From an uncultured Fibrobacter sp. (GTDB lineage Bacteria; Fibrobacterota; Fibrobacteria; Fibrobacterales; Fibrobacteraceae), in the NCBI RefSeq assembly GCF_947305105.1, contig NZ_CAMZCS010000003.1:1-64000 (forward strand): 64,000 bases of DNA, written 5' to 3'. The position numbers were made by a program, and so were the translations under genes. Shown here one piece after another: positions 48,523 to 52,762 of the stretch (positions are counted from its first letter, which is position 1; each line of letters starts with the position of its first letter). A model generated the notes under the pieces. It did no database searches. It had not been told where the DNA came from and saw only the letters and a program-made list of their open reading frames with translations.

Positions 48523-48957
48523 ATGAACTGCCCCCAGCTAAAACTCGAAAACCAGCTGTGCTTCCCGCTGTATGCCGCGTCCAAGGAGATCACGCGCCGC
48601 TACGCCCCGTACCTGGAACCGCTCGACCTCACGTACACGCAGTACATTGTGATGCTCGTGCTGTGGGAAGAAAAAAAGTGCAACGTCTCGGAACTCGGAA
48701 AAAAGCTGTTTCTCGATTCCGGGACGCTCACCCCGCTTTTAAAAAAGCTCGAGGCCAAGGGCTATGTCCAGCGCACCCGCGAACAGAGCGACGAGCGCTG
48801 CCTTTCCGTAAGCCTCACCGCCGAAGGCGAATCGCTCAAGCGCAAGGCCGCAAGCGTCCCCAAGTCCATGGCCAGCTGCGTCAACCTCTCCGACACCGAA
48901 GCCAAGACCCTGTATACCCTGCTGTACAAGGTTTTGGACGGGCTTGGGGAAGGGTGA
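48523..48957 (+). CDS. ohrR: OhrR-like MarR family peroxide sensor
   Basis: 144 residues from ATG 48523 with GGAG ribosome site. The N-terminal KLENQLCFPLYAASKEIT carries the reactive Cys of OhrR proteins, followed by LDLTYTQYIVMLVLWEE with the two Tyr that hydrogen-bond it, LFLDSGTLTPLLKKLEAKG as recognition helix and the wing SDERCLSVSLT. It resembles the one-Cys type as in Bacillus. The usual partner is Ohr; here it is a glutathione peroxidase instead. It probably represses its own operon until oxidised by organic peroxide. Confidence 0.88.
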   Translation: MNCPQLKLENQLCFPLYAASKEITRRYAPYLEPLDLTYTQYIVMLVLWEEKKCNVSELGKKLFLDSGTLTPLLKKLEAKGYVQRTREQSDERCLSVSLTAEGESLKRKAASVPKSMASCVNLSDTEAKTLYTLLYKVLDGLGEG

Positions 48958-48972
48958 GTTTTTTTCCTAATT

Positions 48973-48997
48973 CTCTACCAGCTTGGTGGAGTTTTTT
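48973..48997 (+). terminator. Terminator after ohrR
   Basis: CTCTACCA, GCT loop, TGGTGGAG, six T. Same lower stem as the terminator at 51316. Confidence 0.75.
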
Positions 48998-49021: not shown

Positions 49022-49050
49022 TTGACGGATTATTTTCCATAATCTATATT
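49022..49050 (+). promoter_or_regulatory. Strong promoter in front of a structured region
   Basis: TTGACG (49022-49027), exactly 17 bases, TATATT (49045-49050), the best sigma-70-like promoter in the window. The next coding start is 315 bases downstream, so it drives a long leader or an RNA gene. Confidence 0.65.
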
Positions 49051-49056
49051 GTTCCC

Positions 49057-49345
49057 CGTAGTTCAATAATCCTCGCGACAGTCGACATAGACCATTCGGT
49101 CCGTACGTGCATTCGCGGCGAGGCCCATCAACCTTCTTGTTGATGTTGTTGGATAGCTGGCAGGAACACGACCTGCTCGAGTGTGCCCGCAAGGGTGCCA
49201 GGTAACGCCGGGGAAAGCCCCCGCCAACAGCACCGCAGGATCATCCCAATCAAATAAAAACGCTATAGCACAAAGTGCGCCGTATTTGTCGGCGTGTCTG
49301 TGTTTTTGTTTCACTATCGGAATTGCGTGACAGCATAAACGATAG
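49057..49345 (+). ncRNA. Candidate structured RNA / long leader of the AlbA_2 gene
   Basis: Between the promoter and the next gene there are many helices: CCTCGC/GCGAGG enclosing GACC ATTC GGTC, CATCAAC/GTTGATG, GCAGG/CCTGC, CCC GCAA GGG with a GNRA loop, GGTGC/GCACC enclosing GGGG AAAG CCCC, and CGCCG/CGGCG at 49278-49293. The segment AGGGTGCCAGGTAACGCC followed by a G/C hairpin resembles the specificity domain of RNase P RNA, but the other conserved P RNA parts (GAGGAAAGTCC) are missing. No ORF of value is present. It could end near 49250 or reach the coding region. Confidence 0.45.
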
Positions 49346-49364
49346 GATAAAGAAAGGCGAAAAA

Positions 49365-50939: not shown

Positions 50940-51302
50940 ATGGACTATACATTTACAGAAAAAGAAACCGAAATGATGTTCAATTGGGGCTATACCTCCG
51001 AAATAGAGCATGGTTTCGAAGCTGAAGAACAAAAATTGTACGATAAGTTGGAACGGATCTTTACTCCGTTGCAAAAAGAGAAAAGTGAATCTCGTAAGAT
51101 TGTAGAATTTTTTGAAGAAATATGCGATACATATAAGGGAGTGTCATATTCTTTGCGAATTCCTGGGGGCAATTGTATAAGATTCGTTGATATTGATAAG
51201 GATCTTTGCTTTGACACGAAGAAAACGAAATACACGGATGTGGTGCTTGAGGTGTCAAAAATGATAAATAAGTTGAAACTGAAGAAGCGGGAGGCAAAAT
51301 AA
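50940..51302 (+). CDS. Unknown 120-aa acidic/basic helical protein
   Basis: 120 residues with GAGG ribosome site. Mostly helical, starting MDYTFTEKETEMMFNWGYTS, with an acidic first half and a basic end (LKLKKREAK). No motif recognised. Position, 27 bases after the AlbA_2 gene and before a terminator, suggests one transcription unit and perhaps a linked function. Confidence 0.55.
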   Translation: MDYTFTEKETEMMFNWGYTSEIEHGFEAEEQKLYDKLERIFTPLQKEKSESRKIVEFFEEICDTYKGVSYSLRIPGGNCIRFVDIDKDLCFDTKKTKYTDVVLEVSKMINKLKLKKREAK

Positions 51303-51760: not shown

Positions 51761-51790
51761 ACCCCCTCGAATTCGAGGGGTTTAAATTCA
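51761..51790. repeat. Direct repeat flanking the RhuM gene, left copy
   Basis: ACCCCCTCGAATTCGAGGGG followed by TTTAAATTCA. The core CCCCTCGAATTCGAGGGG is a perfect 18-base palindrome. A copy with two changes lies at 53021-53050. It may also serve as terminator for the genes on both sides. Confidence 0.75.
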
Positions 51791-52762
51791 CCGCCCTTTC
51801 ATGCTCTCCTGGATTTTCTCGATGACTTCTGCGGGAGTCACGAAGTCCAGAACGCTGAACGCAGTCATCTCGTTGCCCATATCCTTGAACGAGGCCCCGA
51901 AGTGATACACCTTGTCGTCGACGAGCAAAAAGCGGTCGTGAATCGTGCGCATTGTCTTTAAATCCAGGCCGGGATATTGCTTTTTGTGCAAATCCGCAGC
52001 CGCCCTGAACTCGGGAGTGATACGCGCTGAATAAATAGCCGCCTGCACGCCCTTCGCACGCATCGCTGCGAATTTCAGCACCTCAATGGTGGCGAACGGG
52101 TCGATGAACACCACGGAACGCTTGGCCGATTTCACGAGGTCTGCAATCAGCACAAACCCGTCGAAACGAGTTCCTGTTGCGAGAATGCCGCCGGTTGGCG
52201 CCTGCGCCGCATTCACGAAGAAATCTATTCGCTGCTCGACCGCGGAAAGGCGGGAATCCTGTTCGGCGACAGACTTCCGGACATCCGCGATTTCTGCGCC
52301 CTGACTTTCGATGAGCTGCCGCTGTTCATGCAGACGGTCCGCAATCTGCAAATCCGTCGCAATCTTCCGCTGGTTCACGGCATAGCCCTTGAGCATGTAG
52401 TCTTTAAGGACGTGATTTGCCCACTGGCGAAAACGCGTGCCAGCAATAGATTTAACGCGATAGCCGACAGAGATGATTACGTCAAGGTTGTACAGGACGA
52501 CCTCAGAAATCTGCGTTTTCCCTTTAATTGCGCCATGGGGAGTGGTATGTGCAAAATTTGCACATACCACTTTTGAATCCAGTTCGCCCTCCTTGAATAC
52601 GTTTTTGATATGCTTTGCGATGACGGAACGTTCTCTTTCGAACAGCATGGACATCTGCGCCTGCGTAAGCCACACTGTCTCGTTCTCCACGCGCACCTCC
52701 AGCCGCACTTCTCCCTCCGGCTGGTAGAGCACGATTTCGCCTTTTTCTTCGTTTTTCGACAT
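51788..52762 (-). CDS. RhuM family protein with PLD-like C-terminal region
   Basis: 324 residues, ribosome site AAAAGGAG. The N-terminal RhuM pattern reads VRVENETVWLTQAQMSMLFE, SVIAKHIKNVFKEGELD, KGKTQISEVVLYNLDVIISV, and FRQWANHVLKDYMLKGYAVN. A coiled coil follows (QLIESQGAEIADVRKSVAEQ) and then a C-terminal region like that of the ORF6N protein at 22913: SVVFIDPFATIEVLKFA, IHDRFLLVDD, YHFGASFKDMGNE. RhuM proteins are of unknown function, found in pathogenicity islands and phage-like regions. The gene contains a 31-base palindrome, follows an attenuator-like leader and is framed by direct repeats. Confidence 0.85.
   Translation of the reverse strand: MSKNEEKGEIVLYQPEGEVRLEVRVENETVWLTQAQMSMLFERERSVIAKHIKNVFKEGELDSKVVCANFAHTTPHGAIKGKTQISEVVLYNLDVIISVGYRVKSIAGTRFRQWANHVLKDYMLKGYAVNQRKIATDLQIADRLHEQRQLIESQGAEIADVRKSVAEQDSRLSAVEQRIDFFVNAAQAPTGGILATGTRFDGFVLIADLVKSAKRSVVFIDPFATIEVLKFAAMRAKGVQAAIYSARITPEFRAAADLHKKQYPGLDLKTMRTIHDRFLLVDDKVYHFGASFKDMGNEMTAFSVLDFVTPAEVIEKIQESMKGR
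52541..52571. repeat. 31-base perfect palindrome inside the RhuM gene
   Basis: Arms AGTGGTATGTGCAAA and its exact complement around one base. It encodes the conserved VCANFAHTT stretch, so part of the symmetry is set by the protein, yet the 15 paired positions include synonymous sites. Confidence 0.75.

Follow-up and report, generated by a model that had tools for sequence, protein, structure and literature searches.

The window analysed here, a 64,000-nt stretch of DNA from an uncultured Fibrobacter sp., carries a marR-type gene with its end at position 48957, then a terminator-like hairpin (48973-48991), a sigma-70-type promoter, a conserved structured RNA and a Schlafen-AlbA_2 gene (Table 1). 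The initial annotation of this locus had proposed a strong promoter followed by about 290 structured bases, with at least six helices and one GNRA loop, ending shortly before an AlbA_2 gene. The promoter, the helices and the GNRA loop were all recovered, and a similar promoter was found at the same place in 89 of 109 intact copies of the RNA; ahead of this promoter, the copies are unrelated in sequence (25% identity). The conserved body, however, is only 198 nt long, and the gene starts 118 nt beyond its end. Beyond it, a protein of about 120 aa (MDYTFTEKE...) is encoded at 50940-51302 (+); related proteins (L042:9311-9664, L057:17982-18353) recur 3' of AlbA_2 or DUF1016 genes in RNA-led units and belong to no Pfam family. 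Also near the RNA-AlbA_2 unit, a RhuM-type protein with a strong match to PADLOC PDC-S05 is encoded at 51788-52762 (-), with no RNA before its gene.

Table 1. Features of the RNA locus in the window and paired segments of the RNA.
Feature	Position	Strand	Evidence or remark
Sigma-70-type promoter, TTGACG-17-TATATT	49022..49050	+	10/12 matches; same place in other intact copies
Conserved structured RNA body, 198 nt	49049..49246	+	Covariance model R1: 220.6 bits, E 6e-64
5' domain (P1, P1b, P2)	49071..49123	+	Two-sided changes in all three helices
P1	49071-49076 with 49118-49123	+	Two-sided changes
P1b	49083-49085 with 49113-49115	+	Two-sided changes
P2	49090-49093 with 49098-49101	+	Two-sided changes
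P3 hairpin (49126-49132 with 49139-49145)	49126..49145	+	93.6% of cells paired; 3 two-sided pairs
Pseudoknot, P3 loop 49135-49138 (UCUU) with 3' tail 49237-49240 (AGGA)	49135..49240	+	
3' domain, P4 closing a junction with P5b, P5, P6 and P7	49146..49230	+	Covariation in A1 and A2
P4	49146-49152 with 49224-49230	+	
P5b	49156-49158 with 49180-49182	+	Varies on one side only
P5	49160-49164 with 49172-49176	+	
P6	49183-49188 with 49193-49198	+	GCAA (GNRA) loop 49189-49192
18-mer AGGGTGCCAGGTAACGCC	49192..49209	+	P6 3' strand and conserved joining strand CARGUAAYGC
P7	49209-49213 with 49219-49223	+	
Variable spacer	49247..49364	+	Weak terminator-like hairpin at 49275-49297
Downstream gene, 515 aa	49365..50912	+	SLFN_AlbA_2, HATPase_c_4 (RecG C-terminal type) and HTH (Pfam)

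The window RNA was more stable than shuffled sequences (z = -2.18), and the comparative evidence for its fold is far stronger. The structure was drawn by RNAalifold and inspection from a MAFFT alignment of 41 copies (A1), in which 97.7% of the cells pair, two-sided changes occur in 19 pairs and the covariation score is 0.257 versus 0.162 when shuffled (0/500), with slid controls at or below 0.064; since the inner pairs of P6 are misaligned in A1, the outer P6 pairs alone were counted. Covariance model R1 collected 116 copies, and the alignment of these (A2), biased towards R1 because it was fitted to that model, contains two-sided changes in 26 of 48 pairs and scores 0.287 versus 0.165 when shuffled (0/500; slid controls at or below 0.073). 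A fold of nine helices and a pseudoknot was supported in both alignments. Within P1b, one pair is G-C in 63 cases and A-U in 51, with zero exceptions, and the pseudoknot, whose pairs were absent from the model used to make A2, is paired in 97.5% of the cells, its last pair being U-A in 87, G-U in 15, A-U in 2 and G-C in 1. The single-stranded patches conserved in the RNA are large, and no tandem repeat array is apparent in the sequence of its body. The window segment is a member of a real RNA family with compensatory changes.

Variation within the family takes several forms. Palindromic insertions of about 50-75 nt were seen within the RNA in L308, L311, L046:8127-8311, L314, L318 and L332, that of L311 lying in the P7 loop with the helix kept. 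Among degenerate copies (G000:C12:15839-15942, L056:1918-2055, L057:14018-14154, L333, L335), several have one deletion junction in common and have lost P4-P7. Diverged relatives (L323, L324, L339, L337, L053) keep the 3' domain (GGATAGCT.GCAGGAACACGACCTGC...GTAATGCC) and have a different 5' domain.

Searches of the window RNA against Rfam (Rfam 15, 4227 families) returned zero matches at the gathering score, and a permissive scan gave chance-like weak matches only, with no known class up to E 0.1; six contigs with other copies gave no Rfam match up to E = 2. No earlier description of the RNA was found in the literature searched. Neither outcome that would have spoken against a new RNA class, a lack of compensatory changes in homologues or a match to a complete known family, was encountered, and the suggestion of such a class is borne out by the covariation in 41 and then 116 copies. 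The RNA constitutes a previously unlisted family, so far known from Fibrobacteraceae only.

The same annotation had pointed to the specificity part of bacterial RNase P RNA and to a possible decoy. The likeness to class A RNase P RNA (RF00010) consists of AGGTAACGCC, a string of 10 nt that reaches 18 nt in the window copy, and GTAACGCCGGGGAA is common among family copies, as a mimic or a specificity-domain remnant might lead one to expect. Nevertheless, the exact 18-mer is limited to 3 of 116 copies; the eight bases at its 5' end form the 3' side of P6, the most variable stem, and the remainder is the conserved joining strand. The RF00010 model found no match at the window locus up to E 10, no covariance model matched a catalytic core in the window RNA, and the fold around the string is different. 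Moreover, the host has a true RNase P RNA elsewhere (C4:20151-20531, 294 bits), the sole sequence to pass the RF00010 gathering score, which carries GGATAACGTCC and lacks both GGTAACGCC and TAACGCC. Homology to RNase P RNA was thus rejected and a relative or mimic of it is scarcely credible; as judged from these comparisons, the agreement over about ten bases is coincidental.

Within the window genome, plain DNA search detected three further copies, one of them degenerate, and the same kind of search found copies in most Fibrobacter genomes. With R1, copies were identified in 62 of 80 Fibrobacter genomes (36 of the 40 high-quality ones), with up to six per genome and about 150-155 in all, as well as in five genomes of two sister genera. 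On a phylum sample of 151 genomes, copies were confined to Fibrobacter and these two sister genera within its family. A scan of 85,000 species with a DNA pattern agreed: among the matches listed, R1 fits only Fibrobacter and Fibrobacteraceae contigs, and none of the viral contigs listed fits it. BLASTN of plasmid and phage records found no copy.

The position of the RNA relative to genes was examined in a census of 143 copies, 136 of which have enough downstream sequence. The first downstream ORF lies on the strand of the RNA in 125 of the 136 (p about 1e-25), whereas the orientation of the upstream gene is random (69 vs 59). An ORF of at least 110 aa follows within 400 nt in 118 of the 136 copies, at a median distance of 101 nt. 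Three mutually unrelated families predominate: 98 of the 136 copies are located at most 400 nt upstream, on the same strand, of a gene for a DUF1016/YhcG nuclease (40), an AlbA_2 protein (30) or an ORF6N protein (28). Homologues therefore do not always precede AlbA_2 genes, a link that had been put forward for checking, and an exclusive association with this family is ruled out. The remaining downstream genes include CopG antitoxin operons, a Gp49/HigB-type toxin, Bro-N and RhuM/Fic proteins; Pfam assigned 10 downstream representatives to YhcG, ORF6N, AlbA_2, CopG, Bro-N, RhuM/Fic, Gp49 or no family. In PADLOC, the DUF1016 representative matched PDC-S02 (E 1e-132) and the ORF6N representative PDC-S05 (E 6e-102), which are among the phage defence candidates reported from the rumen (PMC13356809). 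The downstream proteins belong to these two families, but the HMM definitions of the latter cover protein genes only. The main families follow intact RNAs (82/104) more often than degenerate ones (16/32; p = 0.003). Conversely, 41 genomes yielded 474 domain hits to the three families, whereas the entire census contains 98 RNA-linked genes of these families, so most of their members occur without the RNA. In many copies, a conserved zinc-ribbon-like small ORF (MFDEIFGKFNGGP...LILRCPKCGAKLRYPRG) lies between the RNA and a main gene of the AlbA_2 or ORF6N type (L041:12277-12600, L254, L258, L264 and others).

When the downstream family was mapped on a tree of the 109 intact RNAs, a minimum of 23 changes was required, the lowest value in 200 label shuffles being 32. 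RNA and gene are co-inherited beyond chance, yet often switched. Indeed, identical RNAs precede different families (L043, L244), one a DUF1016 gene and the other, in a different genome, an ORF6N gene. One-direction arrays of the form RNA-gene-RNA-gene were found in L043, L044, L046, L310 and L314. The window copy lies right after marR, where the RNA is present in 2 of about 17 near genomes carrying the locus; G046 is the sole other near genome with the RNA at this place, the remaining ones having other inserts. A phosphatase-type gene occupies it in more distant species, and the site (48957 onward) is an insertion hotspot. From this re-pairing, the arrays and the insertion site, the RNA appears to belong to accessory, mobile DNA, with no recombinase tied to it.

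These features would also be expected of an element acting mainly as DNA, such as a homologous recombination anchor or a cassette junction for defence islands in which RNA structure is secondary: the arrays keep one orientation, the downstream gene has been switched many times and insertion has taken place directly after marR. However, compensatory changes preserve the pairs while altering the sequence, which requires selection on the single strand; this covariation argues for selection at the RNA level, whereas a mobile cassette or an attC-like site would be selected as DNA only and be associated with a recombinase. The conserved promoter also speaks against a DNA element, and a casual rather than systematic look noticed no integrase tied to the copies. 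We regard this explanation as quite improbable.

The hairpins in the spacers between RNA and gene, one or two in number, vary with the gene subfamily. Terminator-like hairpins were detected in 18 of 84 spacers (about 4 expected), including that of the window; a universal intrinsic attenuator before the gene was accordingly not found, nor was a common expression platform in the spacers. As 66 of the 84 have no terminator-like site, RNA and gene are probably carried on one transcript, as far as can be read from the DNA. The toxin-antitoxin operons (CopG antitoxin) with the RNA upstream, in L050, L291, L297, L327, L330 and L303, have their own TTGACA..TATAAT promoter, located between RNA and gene, and a palindromic operator. 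This second promoter keeps alive the reading of the RNA as a separate small RNA, either trans-acting or serving the protein encoded downstream as RNA partner or antitoxin, with RNA and gene moving as a module. Its own strong promoter, the large conserved single-stranded patches and the terminator-like hairpins in about one-fifth of the spacers fit such a role. Yet one and the same RNA stands before proteins of at least three unrelated folds, even identical RNAs precede different families, and most spacers have no terminator-like site, which makes a stand-alone RNA unlikely. The arrangement of promoter, RNA and potentially toxic gene does resemble type III toxin-antitoxin systems (ToxIN-like), but several unrelated proteins lie downstream and the tandem repeats of type III antitoxins are lacking. 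This class was rejected, because the RNA body does not consist of repeats and Pfam scans of 10 representatives revealed no ToxN-family gene downstream.

The reading that we favour, and consider reasonably probable, is that of a modular cis-acting leader RNA common to mobile defence-type genes, in line with the earlier proposal of a regulatory leader. The family combines a pseudoknotted fold and a common promoter with strict orientation, proximity to the gene that follows and a history of being joined again and again to unrelated genes. It is the covariation, the same-strand ORFs, the short distances and the conserved promoter that point to action in cis, together with the higher frequency of the main families behind intact RNAs and the co-inheritance with frequent switching. 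Under the leader interpretation, the promoter would transcribe the RNA as the 5' untranslated part of the messages from mobile genes of defence type, chiefly those for DUF1016/YhcG nuclease, ORF6N and AlbA_2 proteins and less often others. The RNA would act as a control module common to these genes: its pseudoknotted fold would respond to one signal, cellular or related to infection, and set read-through or translation of whichever gene is downstream, so that unrelated defence genes would come under one type of switch. This interpretation is weakened by the differences between spacers of different subfamilies and the lack of a conserved expression platform in those searched, as well as by the many genes of the three families without the RNA; in the toxin-antitoxin cases, the RNA need not serve as a leader, since the operon is provided with a promoter of its own that lies beyond the RNA.

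Leader RNAs as such are already known. Like riboswitch-type and other cis-regulatory leaders (Rfam Cis-reg class), the Fibrobacter RNA is structured, covarying, promoter-proximal and directly 5' of ORFs, and one RNA class is common to unrelated genes. It differs from them in matching 0 of 4227 Rfam families, in its restriction to one bacterial family and in preceding defence candidates rather than metabolic genes. To our knowledge, one leader class on many unrelated defence-type genes is unusual among leader RNAs.

How bacteria silence costly defence genes until they are needed is poorly understood. Against this background, genes of several defence-candidate families that are unrelated to one another are preceded, throughout one genus, by the same new RNA fold. 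For PDC-S02, PDC-S05 and AlbA_2 genes, about whose biology much is still to be learned, the fold provides a clue to regulation; it is also a defined module for probing ligand, partner and phage response, and a marker for finding more defence genes in Fibrobacter. More tentatively, one class of RNA sensor might recognise an infection-related signal and switch on interchangeable, unrelated defence effectors; bacterial immunity would then have an RNA-based regulatory layer of its own, one that expanded within a bacterial family as the RNA became joined to new effector genes.
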